Below are positions 6,503 to 16,898 of a stretch of DNA of 64,000 bases, one piece after another; positions within the stretch are counted from its first letter, which is position 1; the number at the start of each line of letters is the position of its first letter. The position numbers and the translations under genes are program-made. The notes under the pieces are model-generated. The model worked only from the letters and a program-made list of their open reading frames with translations. It was not told the origin of the DNA and did no database searches. This DNA is from Anaerostipes hominis (ex Lee et al. 2021). GTDB lineage: Bacteria > Bacillota > Clostridia > Lachnospirales > Lachnospiraceae. The stretch lies in NCBI RefSeq assembly GCF_002270485.1, contig NZ_NQOG01000001.1:62001-126000 (forward strand). The letters are read 5' to 3'.

Positions 6503-7099
6503 TCACAGAAGCTTTTGCAGCAGCTGGTACAGCTCCTTTTCCGAGCAGACACAGTGATCCGGACGTATTTTGGATACCGGATATGTATGATTCCTCCGGT
6601 TCATCCATATGCAATGAAGCCCGGCGTTTTTTGCTCCCTCTACATCATTCCGGAAGGAATCCCCGACATACCAGACCGAGGCGTCCCGAAGCTTCATCTT
6701 ATCACATGCATACCAAAAAATCTTCTCAGCAGGCTTTGCAGTTCCCACATCTCCGGACACGAAGATTGTATCGTCCAAAAACCACTTTCTGAGGCCCAGC
6801 GTCTCTATTTTCTCCCACTGGTGTCCGGACGGTCCGTTTGTGATCACCCCTATGGGAACCCTATCCCGGCAGAATGTCAGGACCTCTTTCATAACCTCCG
6901 AAACCGCAATCTGTTTTTGATATCCGGCGTATAAATGCTGGAATTGAAGTGCGGATTCATCTGGGATTCTTATATCAAACTCTTTCAGTGCCCTCCGAAT
7001 TCTGTAAATATACATCTCATCCATTGTCATCTTCCCGCTTTGGGAATGTTCAAAAGCCTCATCACTGTACTTTCTGCTCAGCACAAACAGCTGCTCCAT
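6503..7099 (-). pseudogene. HAD-superfamily hydrolase remnant lacking motif I
   Basis: The 198-residue frame has HAD motif II (VITNGPSG), motif III lysine (GTAKPAEKIF) and motif IV (VGDSFRNDVEGAKNAG) of the YjjG-like subfamily. It begins at a point equivalent to roughly residue 40 of the family, and the essential N-terminal DxDxT nucleophile motif is missing. The only ATG (7099) has no Shine-Dalgarno sequence. The same reading frame stays open upstream to about 7280 without a start codon; the last stretch before the ATG (KIGETYEVD) may be true HAD sequence. Upstream DNA instead encodes the start of an unrelated membrane protein in another frame, so a deletion that joined two genes is the simplest reading. 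Without the aspartate a phosphatase would be inactive. Confidence 0.7.
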
Positions 7100-7254
7100 A
7101 TCAACTTCATATGTTTCACCGATCTTGTCAAAACCAATCTCCCCGAAAATACGCCCACTGCCACAAACAAAGCCAATAAAACGGCCGTCAGCTTCTTGTG
7201 TTTTTTTATTTTTCCCGGTATCATAACCATGATATCCTTTAGTTTTTTCTTCAT
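7078..7254 (-). pseudogene. 5' fragment of a membrane-anchored protein gene (possibly an efflux adaptor)
   Basis: A good GGGGAGG ribosome site precedes ATG 7254. The reading starts MKKKLKD, continues with a basic stretch KIKKHKK and one hydrophobic segment LTAVLLALFVAVGVFSG, then after a few residues runs into the DNA of the HAD remnant in the wrong frame and stops after 58 residues. A basic N-terminus plus a single transmembrane helix is how membrane-fusion adaptors and many secreted proteins begin, but nothing diagnostic of a family remains. The overlap with the HAD remnant places the fusion point at about 7130-7160. It could be expressed as a short membrane peptide, though that seems accidental. 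Confidence 0.5.
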
Positions 7255-7378
7255 TAATATTAGCCTCCCCATCCTTCTTTTAGATATTTCCATTTTATAG
7301 GACGAATTGGAAAGGCTTAGGATCAATGTGTGAACAAACTATGGAACTATACCACATAGCAGAAAGGAACCACATTTA

Positions 7379-8299
7379 ATGGATTGGGATGGAAAACGCT
7401 ATTACTCTTTTGATTCTTATTTAAAACAGACCTTTGGCGAAAAAATATATAAAATTTCTTTAAACGGAGGCTTCACATGTCCGAACCGGGACGGCACCCT
7501 TGGAAACAGAGGCTGTATTTTCTGCAGCGAAGGAGGCTCCGGAGATTTTGCGCCCGACGCTGTTCTCCCCATTGATAAACAGATCAAAGAAAGTATCCGC
7601 CTGATTAGCAAAAAGACGGATGCCCATAAATATATTGCCTATTTTCAGGCGTTTACAAACACCTATGCTCCTTATGAAAAACTGCACTCTCTTTTTCATG
7701 AGGCTATCCTGCAGGAAGAAATTGTAGGACTTGCCATCGGCACCCGCCCGGACTGCCTTCCTCAGGACGTGCTTGAACTGCTCGATGAACTGAATCAGAT
7801 AAAGCCAGTCTTCGTGGAACTTGGACTCCAGACCATCCATGAGAAAACTGCACAATTCATCCGGAGAGGCTATCCTCTTTCCTGTTTTCAACAGGCATTA
7901 AAAGCACTGCATGATCTAGGGATCAATGTTGTAGTCCACCTGATTCTCGGACTGCCTGGAGAAACAGAAGAGATGATGCTTCAGTCTGTCCGGTATTTAA
8001 ATCAGCTTCCGATAAACGGGGTCAAACTCTCCCTTCTCCACGTGCTGAAACACACCGATCTCGGCGCTCTGTATGAGAAACATCCATTCCCGGTCTATGA
8101 ACTTGATGACTACGTTGATTTCGTCATCCGCTGTATTGAGGAACTACGAGAAGATATTGTTATCCACCGCCTAACAGGAGACGGTCCCAGAGATCTGCTG
8201 ATTGCTCCCCGCTGGACGCTCAACAAGAGAAAAGTATTGAATGAAATTTCCCGGCGCATGAAGGAGACGGACAGCCGTCAGGGAAAACGTTTCGTCTGA
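7379..8299 (+). CDS. TIGR01212-family radical SAM protein (YhcC-like)
   Basis: 306 residues. The N-terminal part has the spaced cluster motif of this subfamily: CPNRDGTLGNRGCIFC supplies the three cysteines that bind a 4Fe-4S cluster and S-adenosylmethionine. Other family blocks are the aromatic YFQAFTNTYAP, IGTRPDC, ELGLQT and HLILGLPGET. The reaction of bacterial YhcC is not established; the fold resembles Elp3-like and tRNA-modifying radical SAM enzymes. An AGAAAGGAAC ribosome site precedes ATG 7379. It is one of only two plus-strand genes, with a hairpin element just downstream. Confidence 0.88.
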   Translation: MDWDGKRYYSFDSYLKQTFGEKIYKISLNGGFTCPNRDGTLGNRGCIFCSEGGSGDFAPDAVLPIDKQIKESIRLISKKTDAHKYIAYFQAFTNTYAPYEKLHSLFHEAILQEEIVGLAIGTRPDCLPQDVLELLDELNQIKPVFVELGLQTIHEKTAQFIRRGYPLSCFQQALKALHDLGINVVVHLILGLPGETEEMMLQSVRYLNQLPINGVKLSLLHVLKHTDLGALYEKHPFPVYELDDYVDFVIRCIEELREDIVIHRLTGDGPRDLLIAPRWTLNKRKVLNEISRRMKETDSRQGKRFV

Positions 8300-8332
8300 G
8301 AAAATTTAAATCATACCCGCAACACCGTATTT

Positions 8333-8372
8333 TATACCCTTCGGGTGGACGCGCTTCGCGCGATAAGGTATA
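8333..8372. repeat. Nested palindromic element downstream of the radical SAM gene
   Basis: Outer arms TATACC(C)TT at 8333-8341 and AAGGTATA at 8365-8372 enclose an inner perfect hairpin CGCGC-TTC-GCGCG at 8350-8362. There is no T-run directly after it on either strand, so it is not a textbook terminator. It may stabilise or end the plus-strand transcript, or be a genome-specific palindromic repeat; only one copy is seen here. Confidence 0.55.
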
Positions 8373-8375
8373 CGT

Positions 8376-8412
8376 AAAAATACCCTTTCGGAATCACGTC
8401 TCCGAAAGGGTA
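8376..8412 (-). terminator. Intrinsic terminator after the 59-residue membrane protein gene
   Basis: Perfect 11-base stem TACCCTTTCGG at 8381-8391 with 8402-8412, 10-base loop, then five T on the minus strand. It starts five bases after the stop of the small gene at 8417, which supports that gene being real. Confidence 0.85.
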
Positions 8413-8416
8413 TTGA

Positions 8417-8596
8417 TTATTTATGGTGCTTTTTGTCCGGCTCAGGTTTCTTTTGTCTGCCTTCATAAGTGTTGTTGTCACACGTATTGTTATTGCCAAT
8501 CTCCACTCCTTTTTTAATCGGAGCGATCAGAAAACCGATGACTACGCCGAGCCAGAGCCAGAATCCGCCGAAGAAAAATGCTTCTCTTTTTGTCAT
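8417..8596 (-). CDS. Small single-span membrane protein, 59 residues, function unknown
   Basis: A strong ribosome site (GGAGGAATTC) lies 8 bases before ATG 8596. The product starts MTKREAFFFGG, has one hydrophobic segment FWLWLGVVIGFLIAP (residues about 11-26), and ends in a hydrophilic, lysine- and asparagine-rich tail (NNNTCDNNTY, then KPEPDKKHHK). An intrinsic terminator follows directly. A glycine-rich transmembrane start followed by a charged tail recalls small envelope proteins of Firmicutes, but I recognise no family. Divergent organisation relative to the radical SAM gene and its own terminator indicate a monocistronic gene. Confidence 0.75.
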   Translation of the reverse strand: MTKREAFFFGGFWLWLGVVIGFLIAPIKKGVEIGNNNTCDNNTYEGRQKKPEPDKKHHK

Positions 8597-8657
8597 AATG
8601 AATTCCTCCTTTGATTGTCTCCATTATAACATCCGGCCTGAACGAAATCAATGAAGG

Positions 8658-9452
8658 CTAAAGAATCTCCGTGATATCCTCCAATGAATCCACGATCACA
8701 TCCGGCTTCACATCACTTTTCTCTACATCCTCCAGCGTACTCTCTCCCGAAAGCACCAGGATTGAAGTCACAGGGCTTCCGTCCGCCACTGCAATATCCG
8801 TGTACAGCCGATCGCCTACGATAGCGATCTCTTCCGGACGGTACCCTGACTGCTCCACAAAATAATTCAGGGTATGTTTTGAAGGTTTCCCAAAGAATTC
8901 AGGGAAACGTCCCGTGGATGCCTCCACCAGTTTCGCCATGGAACCGCAGTCCGGTATGAAATTTCCGCCTTCCATCGGACAGTTCCAGTCCGGATTAATG
9001 CCATAGTATGTACATCCATTACGCACATAATGACAGGCTTTAGAAATCTTCTCATAAGTAAGTGTCGTATCAAAACCAAGGATGACGATGTCCGGATCTT
9101 CGTCCACCAGCGGCATGTCAAAGGCTTCAAACTCTTTTAGAAGAGAAGGTGTCCCTACCACATAGAGGGTTTCCCCCGGATGGTTCTTTTTTAAGTACTG
9201 GATCATCACATGACTGGAAATCATCATCTGCTCCGGTGTGATGGAAATTCCCATTCCCGAAAGTTTATCTATGTAGGCCTGCTGGCTCTTGGAAGAATTA
9301 TTCGTAAAGAAATAATACTCCCTCCCTGTGTCTTCCACTTTCTTTAAAAAGTCCTGTGTGAATGGAAACAAGTCATTTCCAAGATAGATGGTCCCGTCCA
9401 TGTCGAGGACAAAACATTTAATATCTTTCACTGCCTGAATATTTTGCTTCAT
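8658..9452 (-). CDS. HAD-IIA (NagD-like) sugar/polyol-phosphate phosphatase
   Basis: 264 residues. Motif I is LDMDGTIYLG, motif II TNNSSKS, the C2a cap lies between about 80 and 180, the lysine region is GKPSKH and motif IV is GDRLYTDIAVADG. This is the NagD/AraL/PGP group, which dephosphorylates small phosphates such as sugar phosphates and glycerol phosphate. It lies 12 bases after the dehydrogenase at 9465 and shares its transcript, so it likely removes phosphate from an intermediate or by-product of that enzyme. AraL in Bacillus sits similarly near araM, which supports a detoxifying role. The exact substrate cannot be read from sequence. Confidence 0.87.
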   Translation of the reverse strand: MKQNIQAVKDIKCFVLDMDGTIYLGNDLFPFTQDFLKKVEDTGREYYFFTNNSSKSQQAYIDKLSGMGISITPEQMMISSHVMIQYLKKNHPGETLYVVGTPSLLKEFEAFDMPLVDEDPDIVILGFDTTLTYEKISKACHYVRNGCTYYGINPDWNCPMEGGNFIPDCGSMAKLVEASTGRFPEFFGKPSKHTLNYFVEQSGYRPEEIAIVGDRLYTDIAVADGSPVTSILVLSGESTLEDVEKSDVKPDVIVDSLEDITEIL

Positions 9453-9464
9453 CTGTCATTCTCC

Positions 9465-10649
9465 TTAATCTTCATCATAAAAGCGATGTGTGATCTTCTC
9501 CGCGATCTCCTGCATCTTTCCTTTTTCCACTGCCAGGTCTAAGACGCTGTACCGGTCTCTGACTTTATATCCGTCAAGCAGGCTCTGGTAAAACAGATCT
9601 CTGTCGATTCCGATTTCTTTCGGAGAAACCGGCGCACCTACGGTCTTTAAAAGCCCTTCCGCATATTCTCTGGTCGGTGCCAGCTTCTTCGCCGCCTCCG
9701 GAATTTCGTCTCCCATAATCTCGAAAATTTCCGCAATGATCGGTGTGGCGATGCCGACTTTGATTCCGTGGAGCTCCGGATACTTTTTCCTTGCGATGAA
9801 CTCCATCTCCCAGTAATGGCTCAGCATATGCTCTGCTCCGGATGCCGGACGGGATACGCCGATCAGTCCCATGGCCACTCCGGTAAGCGTCAGCGCCTCG
9901 ATCAGATAGAGAACCGCTTCATCATCCCTGTTTGCAAGTGCCTCTGCACTTCCGGTTACTTTATCAAGGGCTTTCTGAACGAGGGTCACACAAGTCTCAC
10001 AGCAGTATTCCCCGGTCATCTCCCTGGACAAATACCAGTCTGCAAGAGCGGTAAGTTTTCCTATCACATCCCCGAACCCGGCGCGAATCATATGCATTGG
10101 CGCCTGCTTCATGATATCCGTATCCCCGAGGATGCCGTAGGGAAGGGTTGCAATGAAGGAAATCTTCTTTCCTCCCAGGATCAGAGGGGCTCCGTCTGAT
10201 GCATAGCCATCCATAGAAGATGCGGTGCAGACAACGATGTATGGAATCTTTGTCCTGGCTGACATATATTTTACCATATCATTCAAAGTTCCGGAACCTG
10301 CCGCGATCAAAACATCCGTCTCAGGCTCCAGGTTTAAGAACATCGTTCCAACAGCATGCTCAGCCGGGATTAAAATATCTTCCCCTGAATCCAGGACCAC
10401 ACTTTTCACCTGAAATCCTGCATCCTTCAACAGTTTCTCTGCGGTCTCTCCCGCCGCTTTGTATGTATTGTTGTCGCTCAGCATGTAGACTTTCTTTGCA
10501 CCAAGGCCCTTTACCATTTCCGGCAGTTCTTTTATTACTCCCTGACCCATCACCAACTTGTCGATATCCAGAATATGATGCCTTCCGCAGCTGCAGTCAA
10601 AACTTGCTTTTGCCATTTCATTCATAGAATAGTTTAAGATCTCATCCAT
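9465..10649 (-). CDS. sn-Glycerol-1-phosphate dehydrogenase-like enzyme (AraM/EgsA family), copy 2
   Basis: 394 residues of the iron/zinc-containing dehydrogenase superfamily (glycerol dehydrogenase/dehydroquinate synthase fold). Seen: nucleotide loop AAGSGTLND, the substrate block TASSMDGYASDGAP, GFGDVIGKLTALADW (metal Asp), SRPASGAEHMLSHYWEM (metal His) and ELHGIKVG (second metal His). The N-terminus carries CSCGRHH, a Cys/His cluster also present in copy 1. Family members reduce dihydroxyacetone phosphate to sn-glycerol 1-phosphate or the reverse. It starts a two-gene block with the HAD phosphatase and has its own operator-like site upstream. Membership in a glucitol-type PTS locus suggests it may oxidise an imported polyol phosphate instead. 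Confidence 0.85.
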   Translation of the reverse strand: MDEILNYSMNEMAKASFDCSCGRHHILDIDKLVMGQGVIKELPEMVKGLGAKKVYMLSDNNTYKAAGETAEKLLKDAGFQVKSVVLDSGEDILIPAEHAVGTMFLNLEPETDVLIAAGSGTLNDMVKYMSARTKIPYIVVCTASSMDGYASDGAPLILGGKKISFIATLPYGILGDTDIMKQAPMHMIRAGFGDVIGKLTALADWYLSREMTGEYCCETCVTLVQKALDKVTGSAEALANRDDEAVLYLIEALTLTGVAMGLIGVSRPASGAEHMLSHYWEMEFIARKKYPELHGIKVGIATPIIAEIFEIMGDEIPEAAKKLAPTREYAEGLLKTVGAPVSPKEIGIDRDLFYQSLLDGYKVRDRYSVLDLAVEKGKMQEIAEKITHRFYDED

Positions 10650-10763
10650 TTTGCTTCCTCCCGAATCTTAATTTTCAAATAAGATTACCACCTGCAATAT
10701 AAATAATACCACTGGTAATATACCTTCATTTTACTTCCATTCTATGATAAAATCCATACCTTA

Positions 10764-10821
10764 TTTTGAACATTTGTATAAATACTTTTAAAGCCGCTAT
10801 TATACATACATTTGTATAAAT
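10764..10821. promoter_or_regulatory. Operator-like site in front of the copy 2 dehydrogenase
   Basis: TTTTGAACATTTGTATAAATA at 10764-10784 matches the motif found at 12928-12948 and 14967-14985 (consensus TATTGAAATnnTGTATAAATA). A second partial copy, ACATTTGTATAAAT, is repeated at 10808-10821; the same 14 bases start at 10770. The remaining upstream sequence to 10650 holds a short inverted repeat (ATTACCA 10684-10690, TGGTAAT 10713-10719) and the ribosome site of the gene at 10649. Probable binding site of the SorC regulator encoded at 15117. Confidence 0.6.
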
Positions 10822-10823
10822 GC

Positions 10824-11204
10824 TTATATGAATTCGATTGTATTTCCCGGTGCGAAATCTGCGGATGTCAAAGGCTCCTCACCTTTTACCGCCTCCACCA
10901 TAATACATCCCGGGCGCTCTGCTTCCGGACCGCCTTTAAAGCTTACCGTGCAGTGTCCAAGTCCCCTGAGAGTTTCATTTGCTTCAGTACCCACTGCCGT
11001 CACTTCAAATCCTTTTTCATTGATCAGCATCATATCTCCCGGCTCAATATTTGCTCTCAGCTCCTCAATCGTATGCAGCACACAGAGATCCTCAAATGCA
11101 GGGGGCGCATTATCATTAAACAGAATAATAAAATTTGAATCAGGGTCTCCTAAAAATGTCAGCGAGTCTTTCCCCAGCTTCTGAATTCTTGTAAAATATT
11201 TCAT
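10824..11204 (-). CDS. srlB: PTS glucitol/sorbitol-type transporter, subunit IIA
   Basis: 126 residues matching the glucitol IIA family: the hydrophobic start FIILFND, the segment DLCVLHTIEEL with the presumed phosphohistidine His44, and the conserved ITAVG-like block VTAVGTEANETLRGLGHCTVSFKG. It accepts phosphate from HPr and hands it to the IIB domain of SrlE. It lies last in the block srlA-srlE-rpiB-dehydrogenase-srlB, 13 bases after the copy 1 dehydrogenase. In E. coli the IIA gene directly follows srlE; here two enzyme genes are inserted between them. Confidence 0.9.
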   Translation of the reverse strand: MKYFTRIQKLGKDSLTFLGDPDSNFIILFNDNAPPAFEDLCVLHTIEELRANIEPGDMMLINEKGFEVTAVGTEANETLRGLGHCTVSFKGGPEAERPGCIMVEAVKGEEPLTSADFAPGNTIEFI

Positions 11205-11216
11205 TTCATCTCTCCC

Positions 11217-12395
11217 TTACTGATAAATACGATTGGTTATTTTTGCTGCAATTTCTTCAAGTTTTTCCGTTTTCAGGGCCAGTTCCAGAATACTGTACCG
11301 ATTTCTTACCTTGTATCCCTCCAAAATGCTGTTATAAAACAGTTCTCTGTCAATTCCGATATCCGTCGGATACACCGGCGCCCCCACTGTTTTTAAGAGT
11401 CCCTCCACATATTCTCTGGAAGGCGCCAGCTTCATGGCTTCTTTTGGCACCTCATCCTTCATCAGCTCAAATATTTCTGCAATAACAGGCGTTGCAATGC
11501 CTACCTTGATACCGTGCAGTTCCGGGAACTTTCCCTTCGCGATAAAGTCCATCTCCCAGTAATGACTGAGCATATGCTCTGCCCCGGAAGCCGGGCGGGA
11601 TACACCGATCAGTCCCATGGCCACCCCTGTGAGGGTCAACGCTTCGATCAGGTAAAGGACCGCGTCATCGTCCCTCTTTGCCAGGGCTTCTGCGCTGCCT
11701 GTGACTTTGTCCAGTGCTCTCTGCACAAGAGTCACACAGGTCTCACAGCAGTATTCGCCGACTTTTTCTTTTGCCAGATACCAGTCGGCAAGGGCGGTCA
11801 GTTTGCCCAGCACATCGCCGAATCCGGCATGGATCATATGCATTGGCGCCTGCTTCATGATATCTGTGTCTCCGATGACGCCGTAAGGAAGTGTGGCGAC
11901 AAAAGATATTTTCTTTCCCTCCAGGATCAGCGGTGCCCCGTCGGCGACATATCCGTCCATGGAAGGAGCCGTACAGACGATCACATATGGAATCTTTGTT
12001 CTCGCAGACATATATTTTGCCATATCATTGATCGTCCCTGAGCCAACCGCAACGATCACCGCCGTATCCGGTTCCAGGTTCAGAAACATCGTTCCCACGG
12101 CCTGTTCATTGGGAATCAAAATATCATCCCCGGAATCCAGCATCACGTTTTTTACAAGATAATCCTCGCCTTCCAGAATTGAAAGCACCCGGTCTCCTGC
12201 TGCCTTAAATGTGTGATTATCACTGAGCATGTAAACCTTTTTGCCGGAAAACGGCTCCAGTACTTTTGTGAGTTCCTTAAGAACCCCCTGCCCCATGATG
12301 ATATGCCTGATATCCAGTGTATGATGTCTGCCGCAGCTGCAGTCAAAATCTGCGCCTGCCATTTCGTTCATAGAATAATTTAAAACTTCATCCAT
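11217..12395 (-). CDS. sn-Glycerol-1-phosphate dehydrogenase-like enzyme (AraM/EgsA family), copy 1
   Basis: 392 residues, colinear with the copy at 9465 along its entire length; both begin MDE(I/V)LNYSMNEMA and share CSCGRHH, GSGT(L/I)ND, SMDGY, GFGDV(I/L)GKLTALADW, RPASGAEHMLSHYWEM and LHGIKVG. The main difference in the active site region is APSMDGYVADGAP here against ASSMDGYASDGAP in copy 2. Archaeal and Bacillus relatives interconvert sn-glycerol 1-phosphate and dihydroxyacetone phosphate. It stands between rpiB and the IIA gene, within the PTS block itself. I infer a role as a polyol-phosphate dehydrogenase of the imported substrate; the family name alone does not prove this. Confidence 0.85.
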   Translation of the reverse strand: MDEVLNYSMNEMAGADFDCSCGRHHTLDIRHIIMGQGVLKELTKVLEPFSGKKVYMLSDNHTFKAAGDRVLSILEGEDYLVKNVMLDSGDDILIPNEQAVGTMFLNLEPDTAVIVAVGSGTINDMAKYMSARTKIPYVIVCTAPSMDGYVADGAPLILEGKKISFVATLPYGVIGDTDIMKQAPMHMIHAGFGDVLGKLTALADWYLAKEKVGEYCCETCVTLVQRALDKVTGSAEALAKRDDDAVLYLIEALTLTGVAMGLIGVSRPASGAEHMLSHYWEMDFIAKGKFPELHGIKVGIATPVIAEIFELMKDEVPKEAMKLAPSREYVEGLLKTVGAPVYPTDIGIDRELFYNSILEGYKVRNRYSILELALKTEKLEEIAAKITNRIYQ

Positions 12396-12410
12396 ATGCT
12401 CTCCTCCTGT

Positions 12411-12860
12411 CTATTTGCTGAATTGTTTCTCGTAGTAAGTGATCCTCTCGACCTTTTCGGTAGACGGCCCATCTTTAAATTCAAGTCCCATCCAAATATC
12501 CAAAAGATATAAAGCCAGCTGAGGTGCGATCACCCTGGCTCCCATGCACATCACATTTCCGTCATTGCTCAGAATGGAGCGCTCTGTGGAGAACGGATCG
12601 TGGCAGACAGCCGCCCGGATTCCCGGCACCTTATTTGCCGTCATAGCCATGCCGATGCCGGTGCCGCACACGAGAATCCCCCTGTCGCACTCACCGCTGG
12701 TCACTTTTTCACAGGTCTTTACCGCAACATCCGGATACAATGCGGTTTCTCCGGCTTCCACTCCATTGTCCACACAGGTATGACCCGTCTCCTCCAATCT
12801 CTTTTTGATTGCCTCTTTTAACTCATAGGCTGCTTCGTCACATCCAATTGAAATCTTCAT
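12411..12860 (-). CDS. RpiB/LacAB-family sugar-phosphate isomerase
   Basis: 149 residues. Start MKISIGCDEAAYELK (Asp9 region), the catalytic-cysteine block VCGTGIGMAMTANK and the phosphate/anion region AVCHDPFSTERSILSNDGNVMCMGARV are standard for ribose-5-phosphate isomerase B. The same family contains LacA/LacB galactose-6-phosphate isomerase and the tetrulose-4-phosphate isomerases of erythritol pathways. Its place between srlE and a polyol-phosphate-dehydrogenase-like gene suggests it converts a ketose phosphate made by that enzyme into an aldose phosphate. Which one (ribulose-5-P, erythrulose-4-P or other) is open. Confidence 0.88.
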   Translation of the reverse strand: MKISIGCDEAAYELKEAIKKRLEETGHTCVDNGVEAGETALYPDVAVKTCEKVTSGECDRGILVCGTGIGMAMTANKVPGIRAAVCHDPFSTERSILSNDGNVMCMGARVIAPQLALYLLDIWMGLEFKDGPSTEKVERITYYEKQFSK

Positions 12861-12910
12861 ATACTTCTGCCTCCTTTGATTTTATGTCTTCATTTTACCT
12901 TTTTATTTAC

Positions 12911-12951
12911 GCAAAGTCTATATTTAATATTGAAATTATGTATAAATATTT
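12911..12951. promoter_or_regulatory. Operator-like site in front of the isomerase gene
   Basis: TATTGAAATTATGTATAAATA at 12928-12948 is the clearest copy of the locus motif. The resemblance to the site upstream of gutM extends further, to 41 bases (12911-12951 against 14950-14990: GCAwAGTCTATA, TATTGAAAT, TGTATAArTATTT). It lies in the 95-base gap after srlE, and would allow separate expression of the isomerase-dehydrogenase-IIA segment. Confidence 0.6.
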
Positions 12952-12955
12952 TTTT

Positions 12956-13939
12956 CTATGAATGATACAGTCCAAAGCTTGCAGCGAACGCAATGATAAC
13001 TGCCAACGGCCCTGTAATGACACGGGAATACAGGACGGACGGAACACCCAGTTCTATGGTCTCTGACTCACACTCCGCAAGACTCAGCCCTACCGGGATG
13101 AAATCACATCCTACCTGGGCATTGATCGCAAAAAGTGCCGGCAGTGCATATTGGGCCGGTATCTTGCCCATAGCGATCTGTGATCCCAGAAGAGTTCCCA
13201 CGACCTGTGCGATAACGGCTCCGGGGCCGAGCACCGGTGACAAAAACGGCATAGCACAAATAAGAGATATGATCAGCATTCCGGGGAGCGTGGCACACAG
13301 CGGCGAAATTGTCTTGGCAATGACGTTCCCGAGTCCCGTAGCTGTGATGATTCCAAGGATCGTACTGGTAAATGCCATAAACGGAAGGATATTTTTTACT
13401 ACCATTTCAATAGTCTCACGTCCTGCTGCAAAAAACTTTCCGACAACCTGCCCTACTCCGATGCCGAGCCTCGTGATCAGTCCCGGCCGCTCAGCCGTCT
13501 GTTCCTGTTTCATATCCCGGCTGCTGTCTTTTTCTTCTTCCGGCGCTTTTTTCTCGGTGGCAGCTTCACCGTCGGCATAAGACAGACAGCTTTCGTTAAC
13601 AGCAGATACGTATATATCCGGAGTAATATATTTTGCCAGAGGCCCTGACTGTCCCACAGGATTTAAATTAACGGTAAAAATTCCCTTCTGCGGATAAATT
13701 CCGCACCGTAACGTTCCTCCGCAGTCGACGATAGCGACCAGGATTTCTTCATCCGGTACATTATTCTTGTGACCGTCGACTGCTTCCCCGCCGGTCATCT
13801 CCGCCAGCTTTGCGGCCAGCGGATGAATTCCTCCTATCGCTGTCATACAAAGAATCTTATTGCATGTTTCTGTTGCCTGCACTACAAGCGGTCCCCCGTA
13901 TCCTCCGGAACCTGCGACGATTTTTACTGGCTTATTCAT
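12956..13939 (-). CDS. srlE: PTS glucitol/sorbitol-type transporter, subunit IIBC (SrlE-like)
   Basis: 327 residues. The N-terminal soluble IIB portion includes GSGGYGGPLV and the DCGGTLRCGIYP loop, where the phosphocysteine is expected. An acidic/charged linker (ATEKKAPEEEKDSSRD) at about 127-142 joins it to the membrane part (about 160-325) with several hydrophobic segments and the conserved NAQVGCDFIPVGLSLAE. It completes the two-part glucitol permease with SrlA, whose gene overlaps it by eight bases. Substrate in other organisms is glucitol, or a pentitol in some Lactobacillales homologues. Confidence 0.9.
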   Translation of the reverse strand: MNKPVKIVAGSGGYGGPLVVQATETCNKILCMTAIGGIHPLAAKLAEMTGGEAVDGHKNNVPDEEILVAIVDCGGTLRCGIYPQKGIFTVNLNPVGQSGPLAKYITPDIYVSAVNESCLSYADGEAATEKKAPEEEKDSSRDMKQEQTAERPGLITRLGIGVGQVVGKFFAAGRETIEMVVKNILPFMAFTSTILGIITATGLGNVIAKTISPLCATLPGMLIISLICAMPFLSPVLGPGAVIAQVVGTLLGSQIAMGKIPAQYALPALFAINAQVGCDFIPVGLSLAECESETIELGVPSVLYSRVITGPLAVIIAFAASFGLYHS

Positions 13940-14483
13940 GGACAGCTACCTCCTTATTTCCCATCTTCTGATATTTATTGCTGAGCATCAGATAAATTCT
14001 TTCTGTCACCATGCCGCGGATAAAAATAACTACAAGTCCCACGAGAAAATAGCGGACTGCCAGATCACCCAGCGGCAGGCTCAGCTTTTGGATACCTGCT
14101 GCAATCCCCATGTATACGAACAGCTCACCGGCATTGGCATTGGGAAAGAACCCCAGCACTGGGTGGCAGAAGCTGATCGCCGCGTCAAAAAAAGGAACCT
14201 TATACTTCTCTTCTACGAATCTGCCAAAAGTATATGCCATCGGGTTGCCGACACAGATCATTGCGATGACAGGTAGAAATAAATACCGGCACAGCCTGTT
14301 TCCGGTGATCCTCATACAAAATTTTTCTACCCTGTCTTCTCCGATCAGTTTTATAATCGCGTTGACTGCTGTCATCAGACATACTACCGTTGGAATAATC
14401 GTGGTCACCCATCCCAAAAACGTCTGTCCTCCTGTGGAAAACAGCTTCATGAATCCATTCGCCAAATTAGATATAACCTGCAT
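13932..14483 (-). CDS. srlA: PTS glucitol/sorbitol-type transporter, subunit IIC
   Basis: 183 residues, strongly hydrophobic. Family blocks: FSTGGQTFLGWVTTIIPTVV near the start, FLPVIAMICVGNPMAYTFGRF, and the conserved FCHPVLGFFPNANAGELFVYMG. It forms the membrane channel with the C-terminal domain of SrlE. The gene follows gutM by ten bases and overlaps srlE, the standard gutM-srlA-srlE arrangement. Confidence 0.92.
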   Translation of the reverse strand: MQVISNLANGFMKLFSTGGQTFLGWVTTIIPTVVCLMTAVNAIIKLIGEDRVEKFCMRITGNRLCRYLFLPVIAMICVGNPMAYTFGRFVEEKYKVPFFDAAISFCHPVLGFFPNANAGELFVYMGIAAGIQKLSLPLGDLAVRYFLVGLVVIFIRGMVTERIYLMLSNKYQKMGNKEVAVHE

Positions 14484-14493
14484 ATGTTCCTCC

Positions 14494-14892
14494 TTACACT
14501 CTCATTTCCAATGCTTCCAGTGCCTGTATGTATCCTTTATAGAATTTTTGTTTCTTCTTCGTCATACTGCGGAGTTCCGAAAGAACTTCCCGAAAATCCC
14601 TTCCCAGTATCTGCACCTGATAAACCTCAGACACCGGATGGAATCTGGCCAGAAATGAAATCCCGTCCATAGCTTCTCCGCCGGTAATCTTTCCGCCCTC
14701 ATCGCATGCAAGAATGACAATATGGCCTCCGGACAGCAGACGTCCTCTTTTCTGTCCGATACCTACCGCTCCGTCCCGGTTTACTCTCCGCACGGCTTTC
14801 TCATAATCTTTGATCTGAAAAATCCCTCCGGCAGACTGAAGCAGAAACAGTACAAGAAACACTCCAAAAAGAATCAACACATGATTTGACAT
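14494..14892 (-). CDS. gutM: GutM/SrlM-family glucitol operon activator
   Basis: 132 residues with an N-terminal hydrophobic helix VLILFGVFLVLFLLQSAGG, then a soluble part with GIGQKRGRLLSGGHIVILACDEGG, matching the GutM/SrlM family found at the head of glucitol-type PTS operons. GutM is described as an activator of glucitol operons, but the membrane anchor leaves open a role in assembling or sensing the permease. The ribosome site GGAGAG precedes ATG 14892. It is the first gene of the PTS transcript and lies directly after the paired operator at 14950-15024. Confidence 0.82.
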   Translation of the reverse strand: MSNHVLILFGVFLVLFLLQSAGGIFQIKDYEKAVRRVNRDGAVGIGQKRGRLLSGGHIVILACDEGGKITGGEAMDGISFLARFHPVSEVYQVQILGRDFREVLSELRSMTKKKQKFYKGYIQALEALEMRV

Positions 14893-14949
14893 TTTCTCTC
14901 CTTTCTTTGATTTTTTTTTCTGTATATGTATTTTAACCCTTTTATTATT

Positions 14950-15024
14950 GCATAGTCTATAGTTTTTATTGAAATATTGTATAAGTATTTAGAATCACCT
15001 CGACATTTATACATCATTTCAATA
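14950..15024. promoter_or_regulatory. Paired inverted operator at the head of the glucitol-type PTS operon
   Basis: TATTGAAATATTGTATAAG (14967-14985) and TTTATACATCATTTCAATA (15006-15024) are inverted copies of one 19-base motif with only a few mismatches, separated by 20 bases. The left copy belongs to a longer 41-base region shared with 12911-12951. The layout is that of a two-site operator for a multimeric SorC-family repressor/activator, whose gene ends 93 bases away. The core promoter of gutM must lie in or next to it, but no clean -35/-10 pair could be picked. Confidence 0.65.
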
Positions 15025-15035
15025 CACATCAGTAC

Positions 15036-15074
15036 AAAAAAAGACCTTCCGGAATTCAGCAATTCCGGAAGGTC
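15036..15074 (-). terminator. Intrinsic terminator of the SorC regulator transcript
   Basis: Perfect 14-base stem (15043-15056 with 15061-15074), four-base loop, then seven T on the minus strand (15036-15042). It separates the regulator from the PTS operon, so the PTS genes need their own promoter. Confidence 0.92.
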
Positions 15075-15116
15075 CCTTTCTATGTCCTTTATGAACTTAT
15101 GATGATATTATGAAAC

Positions 15117-16091
15117 TCAAACTTCTTTCAGCATCTGTCTTGCACATTCTGAGTCTGTAATCAGAACATTAATATTTTTGGAACGCACGGCTCCGACGAC
15201 AGATTTTGATTTCTCGATTCCCCCTGCAACCCCGATCCTTATTTCAATATTTTTCAGCTGCTCCTGTGATATGCCTGCCACACGTTGATTGAAAGAATCA
15301 AACGGTTTCGTATTTCCCTCGATATTGTAAAAATACAGCGACGCGTCTCCGACTGCCCCCATCTCAACAAAATTCTTTAATTCATTCTCCGTTAAATATC
15401 CTTCTGCAACAAGAGCTGTTCCTCCGGCCTCCGGGATTCCGATCCCCATGACCACGACCCTGAGTTTTGAAAAATATTCATAGATGTAGTTTACCGTATC
15501 CTCCTGAAGGAAAATGTCTTTCACCTCTTTGCTGGAAAAAATACCGGGTGACAGGAACTGGACATAATCACCTCCGAACTTTTCCGCAAATTCCACTGCA
15601 ATCCGGTTGGACTGTACATCCCTCTTTTCCGTCCTTTTCTGGGATATCCCTCCGTACAGGGGCACAAACAAAAGCTTATTGCCTTTGTTATAAAATTTAT
15701 CCACATGGGCAATGTGGGACAGCGTCCTCCCCATCGTGACTCCCACATAGTCATCATTTTTCAGGATATGGCTCAGGTAGTCAAAGGCCGCCTCTGAAAG
15801 CATATCCATCTGCTCCTCTTTTGTGTCAAGCGGCTCGCTCTCCACAATGATGGCCTCTTTCAGACCAAACCTCTGTTCCAGCTTCTGCTCTAATTCCCCG
15901 TAATCGTAGCTGATAGGGTTTATGACCTCGATCTTCACAATTCCCTGTTCCCTCCCGAGAGCCAGCATCCTGGATACAGTGGCCCTGGAAAGTCCCAGGG
16001 TGTTGCAGATCTCCACCTGGGTCTTATTTTTCATATAGTATAAATTGCAGCATTTATATATCAGACGGTCGTCATCGACAATTTTCTTCAT
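15117..16091 (-). CDS. SorC/DeoR-family sugar-phosphate-responsive regulator
   Basis: 324 residues. N-terminal helix-turn-helix at about 23-45 (KTQVEICNTLGLSRATVSRML), followed by the SorC sugar-binding domain with VTMGRTL, LLFVPLYGGIS and the C-terminal VAGGIEKSKSVVGAVRSKNINVLITD. Such regulators bind a phosphorylated sugar and control nearby catabolic operons. The gene lies 13 bases after a HAD phosphatase gene and just upstream of the glucitol-type PTS locus, with a terminator between. Four copies of one operator-like motif in that locus make it the most likely target set. Confidence 0.88.
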   Translation of the reverse strand: MKKIVDDDRLIYKCCNLYYMKNKTQVEICNTLGLSRATVSRMLALGREQGIVKIEVINPISYDYGELEQKLEQRFGLKEAIIVESEPLDTKEEQMDMLSEAAFDYLSHILKNDDYVGVTMGRTLSHIAHVDKFYNKGNKLLFVPLYGGISQKRTEKRDVQSNRIAVEFAEKFGGDYVQFLSPGIFSSKEVKDIFLQEDTVNYIYEYFSKLRVVVMGIGIPEAGGTALVAEGYLTENELKNFVEMGAVGDASLYFYNIEGNTKPFDSFNQRVAGISQEQLKNIEIRIGVAGGIEKSKSVVGAVRSKNINVLITDSECARQMLKEV

Positions 16092-16103
16092 CTGCTTCCA
16101 CCT

Positions 16104-16898
16104 TTATATCAATTCTAATTCGTTCAGCGCATTATAGATTCCGTTTTCTTTTGTCGTCTGGGTGAACATATCCGCAGACTCCTTCACTGCGTCACTGCAC
16201 CGTCCCATGCCGATACCGATCCCGACATTTTTAAGCATCTCTACGTCGTTGTCCGAATCACCGAATGCATAGAGATTCTCTTTAGAAATCCCAAGATCAT
16301 TTGCTACCTGGACAACCGCGTCTCCTTTCGTGACACCTTTGAGCGTAATGTCAAAGAAATTCTCACGGACATGTTTGGCACACTCGAATGTGTCTGCATA
16401 TTCTCTTTTAAAATCTTCAAATACATCAGGCGCTTTATAGTTCATCGTAAGCTTTGATATATGCTGTTTTTCCCAGTACTTCCACGGGGCATACCACTCC
16501 ATCGGAAGACTGAACAGACGGCAGAAATACTTAAAGAATTCCTCGTCGTTATGTAAATAGTATGTCACGTCCTGGGTATCCATCTGGATGATCGTATCTC
16601 TTATAAAATACTTGTCTATGACTTCATGCAGCAGATCTTCCTCAATATAAATATCCCTGAGCACTTCCCCGTCCACTTCCGCATAGCTTCCATTGCAGGT
16701 GACGGCTCCGTCAAAATGCTCGATATCCGCCTCCAGAAATCGTTTGGTCCGCCCTGAACACAGCAGGGCTGCATATCCGTTGTCCTGCAGTCTCTTAATA
16801 GCCTCCAGGGTCTTCGGCATAACTGTCTTGATATGGTCCACTTCATCAACTAATGTTCCGTCATAGTCAAAAAATACCGCTCCTTTATATTTCTTCAT
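16104..16898 (-). CDS. Cof-type HAD-IIB phosphatase
   Basis: 264 residues. Motif I FFDYDGTLVDE, motif II LCSGRTKRF, a type IIB cap between about 85 and 190, the lysine GVTKGDAV and motif IV FGDSDNDVEMLKNVG. These enzymes act on sugar phosphates, nucleotides or PLP with loose specificity. It is the first gene of a transcript with the SorC regulator and therefore probably belongs to the polyol locus, perhaps relieving phosphate-ester build-up. A good promoter lies at 16948-16976. Confidence 0.88.
   Translation of the reverse strand: MKKYKGAVFFDYDGTLVDEVDHIKTVMPKTLEAIKRLQDNGYAALLCSGRTKRFLEADIEHFDGAVTCNGSYAEVDGEVLRDIYIEEDLLHEVIDKYFIRDTIIQMDTQDVTYYLHNDEEFFKYFCRLFSLPMEWYAPWKYWEKQHISKLTMNYKAPDVFEDFKREYADTFECAKHVRENFFDITLKGVTKGDAVVQVANDLGISKENLYAFGDSDNDVEMLKNVGIGIGMGRCSDAVKESADMFTQTTKENGIYNALNELELI

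Follow-up and report, generated by a model that had tools for sequence, protein, structure and literature searches.

An Anaerostipes gene block with a glucitol-type phosphotransferase system, AraM-like dehydrogenases and a Ser-type RpiB as a candidate tetritol pathway

Positions 8658-16898 of a 64,000-nucleotide stretch of the Anaerostipes hominis genome (the window) hold ten open frames, all on the minus strand. They encode a glucitol-type phosphotransferase system (PTS), an RpiB-family isomerase, two AraM-like dehydrogenases (DH1 and DH2), two HAD phosphatases and a SorC-type regulator. Read from its sequence, the block has about an even chance of being a PTS-fed catabolic module that would convert a four-carbon polyol (erythritol or a threitol) to D-erythrose 4-phosphate, with both substrate and direction predicted. 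Specifically, SrlAEB with GutM would take up and phosphorylate the tetritol to tetritol 4-phosphate; DH1, and perhaps DH2, would oxidize this to D-erythrulose 4-phosphate; and the isomerase, in which serine replaces the ring-opening histidine ("Ser-type"), would make D-erythrose 4-phosphate for the non-oxidative pentose phosphate pathway (transketolase/transaldolase).

An earlier note on this DNA had proposed the same order of steps, from PTS through oxidation by an AraM-like enzyme to an aldose phosphate made by RpiB, with either erythrose 4-phosphate or ribose 5-phosphate as the outcome. The order of steps gains support from the active-site class of the isomerase, from conserved neighborhoods and from a shared operator-like site. 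As to the outcome, the evidence favors erythrose 4-phosphate, and ribose 5-phosphate is less favored. A wider claim is held more tentatively, a little short of even confidence: this branch of the AraM family would be tetritol-phosphate (erythritol 4-phosphate) dehydrogenases. Many gut Clostridia would then use them, with a Ser-type RpiB and either a PTS or an FGGY kinase, to convert erythritol or threitol to D-erythrose 4-phosphate by a short route that needs neither racemase nor LerI; Rubrobacter plasmids carry a related set, and the frequent HAD-IIA partner would be a phosphatase for tetritol phosphate or 4-phosphoerythronate. Every part of the block belongs to a known family; what appears to be new is the combination of PTS, AraM-like dehydrogenase and Ser-type RpiB with no kinase, EryC or LerI in the operon. 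A full-text literature search, judged from titles and the starts of abstracts and covering few subscription papers, found no described pathway with this set among the papers listed (for two of the queries, 20 of 22 and 20 of 241), in agreement with the earlier note.

Active site of the isomerase

Alignment to solved RpiB structures identifies Arg94, Ser98, Ser133 and Lys136 (R-S-S-K) in the window RpiB, and Glu9 where His10 sits. Ser98 occupies the position of the ring-opening His99 of E. coli RpiB; the E. coli chain aligned (2vvr), which we take to be the H99N mutant, shows Asn at 99. The four residues correspond to Arg105, Ser109, Ser145 and Lys148 of Coccidioides immitis RpiB (3qd5/3sdw), in which Ser likewise replaces the ring-opening His. 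At the catalytic positions, the window protein is thus like this fungal enzyme, whose substrate is unproven, and unlike the enzymes of E. coli and of Clostridium thermocellum; it has neither the ring-opening His nor the His/Arg phosphate-binding residues of true RpiB. In the report on the Coccidioides enzyme, Ser109, at the place of the ring-opening His, binds phosphate together with Ser145 and Lys148, with Arg105 near, and the authors suspect substrates of shorter chain (PMC3212906). Mutation of the ring-opening His is reported to lower kcat 26-fold in the E. coli enzyme and 10-fold in that of T. cruzi, and to leave Leishmania RpiB inactive (PMC4783025). By our reasoning, an enzyme for a four-carbon 4-phosphate needs no ring-opening residue because its substrate cannot form a furanose ring.

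The same residues recur widely. R-S-S-K is found in 47 of 54 aligned rows, including every complete Ser-type copy from loci of DH relatives aligned there; this count includes near-copies and two loci twice (L043/L074 and L045/L068), and it excludes the window's own gene (L053), a His-type copy whose frame is fused to another protein (L052), a copy cut by a contig end (L096) and a divergent paralogue (L121_7). The other seven rows are five with L/M-H-H-R, A. vitis with Q-H-F-R and one rhizobial protein with R-S-S-N. This rhizobial protein passes the curated model for D-erythrulose-4-phosphate isomerase (DerI; 256.8 bits, cut-off 240), and its gene follows immediately after a TIM-type gene in a cluster that includes OiaX. 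The R-S-S-K set is therefore common to a curated D-erythrulose-4-phosphate isomerase apart from one residue. In a 71-row RpiB tree, 57 Ser-type rows fall on one side of a branch with support of 99/94, recovered in 100% of 200 bootstrap trees.

Could the same genes degrade a pentitol? The PTS would then take ribitol, arabitol or xylitol, the dehydrogenase would yield a pentulose 5-phosphate, and RpiB would make or use ribose 5-phosphate. The window RpiB passes the ribose-5-phosphate isomerase model; a ribulokinase lies between the dehydrogenase and RpiB in L088 and L125; two paralogous dehydrogenases of the same genome have AraD/FucA-like and galactitol-like PTS genes as neighbors (names given by eye); and transketolase and transaldolase partners suit pentoses equally. 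However, no complete Ser-type copy among the aligned DH loci has the ring-opening His or the His/Arg phosphate site, and two operons (L089 and L113) hold a His-type RpiB in addition to the Ser-type copy. The window genome also has a His-type copy elsewhere (L052). These separate copies suggest that the Ser-type protein has another job, and we regard a pentitol pathway as unlikely.

A second Ser-type RpiB of the window genome, 90% identical to that of the window, lies at the end of contig C27 (L142, 10125-10574). It follows PTS (fructose-like, by eye), class II aldolase-like and HAD genes, and the contig ends just past it.

The AraM-like dehydrogenases and their neighborhoods

DH1 and DH2 share 297 of 394 alignment columns (~76% identity), and both contain the Pfam domain Fe-ADH_2. 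They could be true glycerol-1-phosphate dehydrogenases, with the RpiB neighborhood serving the balance of glycerol phosphate and dihydroxyacetone phosphate (DHAP). Indeed, their best family model (NF002022) and their top-scoring solved structure (9h4x) are both glycerol-1-phosphate dehydrogenases. We consider this very improbable, for several reasons. First, DH1 and DH2 score 210.8 and 208.8 bits, about half of the model cut-off of 413. Second, the window genome has zero matches to PcrB, which in B. subtilis acts on glycerol 1-phosphate; a control search gave matches for 7 of 14 named genomes, 5 of them over the cut-off. Third, the four strongest Fe-ADH_2 matches of the genome all adjoin sugar-metabolism genes. 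Fourth, in a 93-row tree of dehydrogenases, 70 rows form one clade with support of 100/99, and 9h4x, a Priestia AraM-like protein encoded beside araBA and two further AraM-like proteins of the window genome fall outside it. Inside the clade are all rows with a Gut-type PTS (5) or a mannose-type PTS (5) and 38 of the 39 that have a linked Ser-type RpiB; several long branches are flagged in the tree, some of them within the clade (L121, L123 and L125). The clade looks like a family of sugar-alcohol phosphate dehydrogenases.

The two further AraM-like genes (L039, 8810-13026; L040, 4466-9377) occur with a galactitol-like PTS gene and an AraD/FucA-like gene, named by eye, and one of the two loci also has a HAD-IIA gene whose product is 77% identical to that of the window. 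Near the N-terminus of the DHs is a CSCG..H motif, invariant in 16 of 16 close homologues aligned and outside the part that aligns to 9h4x; it looks like a metal or redox motif.

Which carbon would be oxidized? No LerI-type isomerase was found in 7 of 7 Anaerostipes genomes searched, where the only relative is a canonical-like TIM (35-37% identical), so the dehydrogenase would have to act at C2, a position one carbon more distant from the phosphate than the carbon oxidized in glycerol 1-phosphate. A fold relative, 3-dehydroquinate synthase, oxidizes a carbon that does not neighbor its phosphate carbon. By our own reasoning, a relative of glycerol-1-phosphate dehydrogenase would suit D-erythritol or D-threitol 4-phosphate, because the carbinol of sn-glycerol 1-phosphate has the D configuration; a relative of glycerol-3-phosphate dehydrogenase such as EryB suits the L form, which then requires the racemase EryC. 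If C3 were oxidized instead, Anaerostipes would need a LerI activity, for which canonical or divergent TIM-like genes could in principle be the source. A Brucella-like route via L-erythrulose 1-phosphate would suit the chemistry and stereochemistry of glycerol-1-phosphate dehydrogenases, again by our reasoning, and in four of five Eubacteriaceae genomes with Gut-PTS/DH loci a Ser-type RpiB lies beside a LerI-type TIM elsewhere. It is weakened by the finding that Anaerostipes shows only the canonical-like TIM and, in other clusters of the window genome, two divergent TIM-like genes, for which a LerI role is still conceivable.

The best 80 of 215 DH relatives gave 79 named loci, of which 75 contain a DH-family frame (L095, L101, L108 and L137 were dropped, as longer opposite-strand frames apparently displaced it there). 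Partners were counted within 6 kb of the DH on the same strand, in loci that are related and hence not independent events: HAD-IIA in 43 of 75 loci, RpiB in 36, SorC in 34, FGGY kinase in 22 and GntR in 14, and more rarely the transketolase N-part (9), a transaldolase-like protein (6), srlE (5) and a mannose-type PTS (5). The GntR, MDR, PPE, class II aldolase, ABC, Tkt and mannose-PTS labels are our presumptive assignments, made by eye and extended to relatives by BLAST clustering. The RpiB is Ser-type in 35 of the 36 loci, and the remaining copy, in L096, is cut by a contig end. Counted on either strand, RpiB copies near a DH number 39: 35 Ser-type (34 by script, with L125 corrected by alignment), the second, His-type copies of L089 and L113, the cut copy of L096 and a divergent paralogue in L121. 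In L123, RpiB lies 3.3 kb from the DH, outside its operon. Typical gene orders are SorC-DH-HADIIA-RpiB-FGGY and SorC-DH-HADIIA-RpiB-Tal-TktN-TktC(-FGGY). Of six FGGY kinases scanned, four pass no equivalog model, that of L088 passes two ribulokinase models and that of L125 one; the one Tal scanned scores over a fructose-6-phosphate aldolase model. A readable Ser-type RpiB was found in all 11 genomes of a follow-up set. The earlier note had suggested a neighborhood search; the search made here found the DH-RpiB linkage in 36 of 75 loci and also five Eubacteriaceae loci that combine Gut-PTS and DH without RpiB in the operon.

That HAD-IIA is the commonest DH partner counted could also fit a reverse redox sink, in which erythrose 4-phosphate would go to erythrulose 4-phosphate, then by the DH to erythritol 4-phosphate, which HAD-IIA would dephosphorylate. 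This would be somewhat like a route proposed in erythritol-forming lactic acid bacteria, with its dehydrogenase and phosphatase still to be identified (PMC12542623). However, a PTS or FGGY kinase in many such operons points to uptake and phosphorylation. SorC-type control is also typical of catabolic operons, and we see little probability of a sink. In a catabolic tetritol pathway, the putative role of HAD-IIA would be to dephosphorylate by-products or surplus intermediates, such as tetritol phosphate in excess or 4-phosphoerythronate. HAD-IIA enzymes repair 4-phosphoerythronate in yeast and mammals. A HAD-IIA-type enzyme of B. subtilis, AraL, is described as poorly selective among sugar phosphates, and a role in detoxification has been proposed for it (PMC3207120).

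Gene block, promoters and operator-like sites

The gene set and arrangement given in the earlier note are present as open frames with matching family models (Table 1). In order of transcription, HAD-IIB and the SorC-type regulator are followed by gutM-srlA-srlE, rpiB-DH1-srlB and DH2-HAD-IIA. After the regulator gene come a hairpin and then a T run, and the gaps 5' of gutM, rpiB and DH2 measure 224, 95 and 174 bases, so that three promoters can be read after the regulator unit. Pfam curated cut-offs are passed for EII-GUT, EIIBC-GUT N and C, PTSIIA_gutA, GutM, LacAB_rpiB, Fe-ADH_2 (twice), Sugar-bind, Hydrolase_6 and Hydrolase_3. All three PTS components, IIC, IIB(C) and IIA, are thus over Pfam cut-offs, and srlA and srlE are also over NCBIfam equivalogs; srlB is below the cut-offs of its NCBIfam models (87.5 vs 189.55). 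A short-chain sorbitol-6-phosphate dehydrogenase (srlD) is absent from the ten proteins, as the earlier note had stated; no search for one was made in the remainder of the genome. In two single-contig genomes of the genus (L050 and L051; 89-99% protein identity), all ten genes recur in this order, so the arrangement is not an assembly artefact. The HAD-IIB gene stays near SorC/DH in L046, L047, L050 and L051.

Table 1. Genes and operator-like sites of the block (positions in the window)
Feature	Positions	Strand	Basis
HAD-IIB (Cof-type) phosphatase	16104..16898	-	Hydrolase_3 and TIGR00099 over cut-off; directly upstream of regulator
SorC/DeoR-type sugar-binding regulator	15117..16091	-	Pfam Sugar-bind, 203.2 bits
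Operator-like site upstream of gutM, opposite orientation	15006..15022	+	pattern match, 2 mismatches
Operator-like site upstream of gutM	14969..14985	-	pattern match, 2 mismatches
gutM, glucitol-operon activator-like protein	14494..14892	-	Pfam GutM, 73.8 bits
srlA, PTS IIC	13932..14483	-	NF049923, 226.8 bits (cut-off 150)
srlE, PTS IIB(C)	12956..13939	-	NF049924, 461.3 bits (cut-off 400)
Operator-like site upstream of rpiB	12930..12946	-	1 mismatch; same in L050, L051
rpiB, Ser-type RpiB-family isomerase; proposed D-erythrulose-4-phosphate isomerase	12411..12860	-	active-site residues, tree
DH1, AraM-like (Fe-ADH_2); proposed polyol-phosphate dehydrogenase	11217..12395	-	Pfam, NCBIfam, structure match, tree
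srlB, PTS IIA	10824..11204	-	Pfam PTSIIA_gutA, 100.2 bits
Operator-like site upstream of DH2, TTTATACAAATGTTCAA	10766..10782	-	pattern; same in L050
Palindromic box ACCAGTGGTATTA in DH2 promoter	10704..10720		resembles box 5' of mannose-type PTS genes in relatives
DH2, AraM-like dehydrogenase, sister paralogue of DH1	9465..10649	-	alignment, tree
HAD-IIA phosphatase	8658..9452	-	TIGR01460, 134 bits (cut-off 100.15)

The SorC-type regulator would sense a phosphorylated intermediate, its predicted signal, and would control the gutM, rpiB and DH2 promoters through one operator. The pattern TTTAWACAWWTKTTCWA was derived from these three promoters. A scan that allowed up to 2 mismatches gives 5 matches to it in the 64 kb against 0.44 expected, 4 of the 5 in these promoter gaps, a flattering figure that is not independent because the pattern was drawn from the same sites. 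A narrower pattern, TTTAWACAWATKTTCWA, gives 5 matches in the whole genome at 1 mismatch against 3 for a reversed control, and 2 of the 5 lie in this block. Sites at 0-1 mismatch lie 5' of SorC, RpiB, DH or PTS genes in L050, L051, L063 (=L046), L064, L068 (=L045), L074 (=L043), L089 and L118.

The DH2 promoter also carries the box ACCAGTGGTATTA, like one upstream of manIIB in L045, which raises the prospect of split roles: DH1 and RpiB would serve the polyol of the Gut-PTS, and DH2 and HAD-IIA the substrate of a mannose-type PTS operon elsewhere, under double control. In six loci of the genus (L041, L042, L044, L045, L048 and L049), a DH comes after the MDR-type gene of a mannose-PTS operon or its remnant, with HAD-IIA close to it in five. 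Against split roles, the tree joins DH2 to DH1 among the window's close relatives (97/96) and not to the mannose-PTS DHs, and we think such a division quite unlikely. The mannose-PTS copy of the window genome (L164) keeps its GntR gene (61% identical to that of L045), and DH and HAD-IIA are not in that operon. DH2 had also been considered as an orthologue of the mannose-PTS dehydrogenase, as its HAD-IIA neighbor and promoter box suggested; this was dropped on the same branch of the tree.

Evidence against a tetritol route, known systems and implications

What weighs against a tetritol pathway? First, characterized AraM oxidizes the carbon next to the phosphate carbon (glycerol 1-phosphate/DHAP), and D-erythrulose 4-phosphate needs oxidation one carbon further. 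Second, LerI-type isomerases are present in 12 of 40 genomes (at least 45% identity, a threshold chosen here) and would accept the alternative DH product. Third, the window RpiB passes the ribose-5-phosphate isomerase B model TIGR01120 (143.6 bits, cut-off 138.65) and is far under the DerI cut-off (134.6 vs 240). Eight further Ser-type copies score 132-186 on the DerI model, which the rhizobial copy alone passes. The DerI score minus the TIGR01120 score is -9 bits for the window protein and -14 for the second Ser-type copy of its genome, +14 to +145 in eight other Ser-type rows, and -72 and -91 in two His-type rows; by whole-protein score, the window type is intermediate. Fourth, M. tuberculosis RpiB is described as working by a variant mechanism with other residues in its active site (PMC3212906), so unusual residues by themselves are compatible with ribose 5-phosphate. 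Fifth, 39 of the 75 DH loci have no RpiB on the strand of the DH within the 6 kb counted. In Eubacterium callanderi, E. barkeri, E. aggregans and two metagenome-assembled genomes, the Gut-PTS operon reads SorC-DH-HADIIA-gutM-srlA-srlE without RpiB; these five genomes encode a Ser-type RpiB elsewhere, which in four of them adjoins a TIM-type gene. Sixth, L088 and L125 combine DH and Ser-type RpiB with a ribulokinase. Seventh, the operator pattern at up to 2 mismatches is found in 17 of 42 SorC+DH loci (window, L050 and L051 included) and not in the other 25.

The proposed tetritol route would work like the last part of those of Brucella and Mycolicibacterium. The Brucella erythritol pathway runs EryA-EryB-EryC-EryH-EryI (PMC5992420, PMC12542623) and, as proposed for the window, ends in an RpiB-family isomerase (EryI) that gives D-erythrose 4-phosphate. 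The window operon differs in having a PTS, no kinase and an AraM-like enzyme in place of EryB; no EryC- or EryH-like gene is found among the ten, and the rest of the genome was not searched for an EryC-type epimerase. Judged by the lack of a LerI/EryH-type TIM, the block is not a member of the Brucella-type system. The tetritol enzymes EltD-LerK-LerI-DerI, with EltD from Mycolicibacterium (PMC10733421), have the DerI step to D-erythrose 4-phosphate in common with the window proposal; there the free polyol is oxidized and the product then phosphorylated, whereas phosphorylation by the PTS would come first in the window.

Two other systems share parts of the block. The E. coli glucitol operon, srlAEBD-gutM-srlR-gutQ, has the PTS subunits and GutM in common with it; the window block lacks SrlD and GutQ and has a SorC-type regulator, AraM-like enzymes and an isomerase instead. 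AraM sits in the B. subtilis arabinose operon, and with AraL it pairs a HAD-IIA-type phosphatase and an AraM-family dehydrogenase in one sugar operon, as in the window. The described function of bacterial AraM lies in archaeal-type lipids, as a glycerol-1-phosphate enzyme that in B. subtilis makes glycerol 1-phosphate for an ether lipid (PMC13400652), whereas the window DHs belong to another clade than 9h4x, have an RpiB partner and come from a genome with no PcrB match.

What would a tetritol pathway imply? First, a 2025 paper states that, in lactic acid bacteria, the dehydrogenase and the phosphatase for erythritol 4-phosphate have yet to be identified (PMC12542623); the 70-row clade and its HAD-IIA partner are candidates for them, not an answer. 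Second, if the proposal is true, the name sn-glycerol-1-phosphate dehydrogenase is wrong for the clade, and inferences about bacterial glycerol 1-phosphate lipids from its presence are affected. Third, tetritol use by butyrate producers of the gut would gain a genetic basis. The sweetener erythritol is in common use, and enzymes for tetritol-phosphate oxidation are sought. As for growth, A. caccae is reported to grow on sorbitol, with meso-erythritol among the polyols tested (PMC8375055). Anaerofustis butyriciformans is listed as Biolog-positive for i-erythritol, adonitol and D-arabitol (PMC12029686), a profile that does not separate C4 from C5 polyols. A further paper has erythritol as an analyte and as a product of another species (PMC4732544).

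Related clusters occur outside the Clostridia. Two Rubrobacter plasmids (L222, 836-21022; L223, 3317-17715) combine several FGGY kinase genes with genes for dihydroxyacetone kinase and for HAD-IIA, AraM-like, Ser-type RpiB and GlpD-like proteins; in R. indicoceani there are two AraM-like genes. On Rhizobium and Agrobacterium plasmids (L224, 4219-10642; L226, 4095-10510), a distant AraM-like gene stands directly before genes for HAD-IIB and a GlpD-like dehydrogenase, with an FGGY kinase and an ABC transporter close by; polyol-phosphate stereo-inversion is a possible function of these sets.

In the window genome, contigs C44 (L149, 3-5408) and C40 (L150, 2016-5248) hold two further Gut-type PTS sets beside a 439-aa oxidoreductase-like protein, whose L149 copy has zero NCBIfam matches. 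L149 also holds genes for a class II aldolase-like and a divergent TIM-like protein, and L191 has a similar pair at 7257-9371. Beside the block, comparison of window positions 6503-7326 with L050 541-4908 shows that the window lacks an ABC-transporter-like region of ~3.5 kb and the start of a HAD gene. A short frame that remains at 7078-7326 resembles the start of L050 3177-4904. L051 also lacks the ABC-transporter-like region, yet its HAD gene is full-length.

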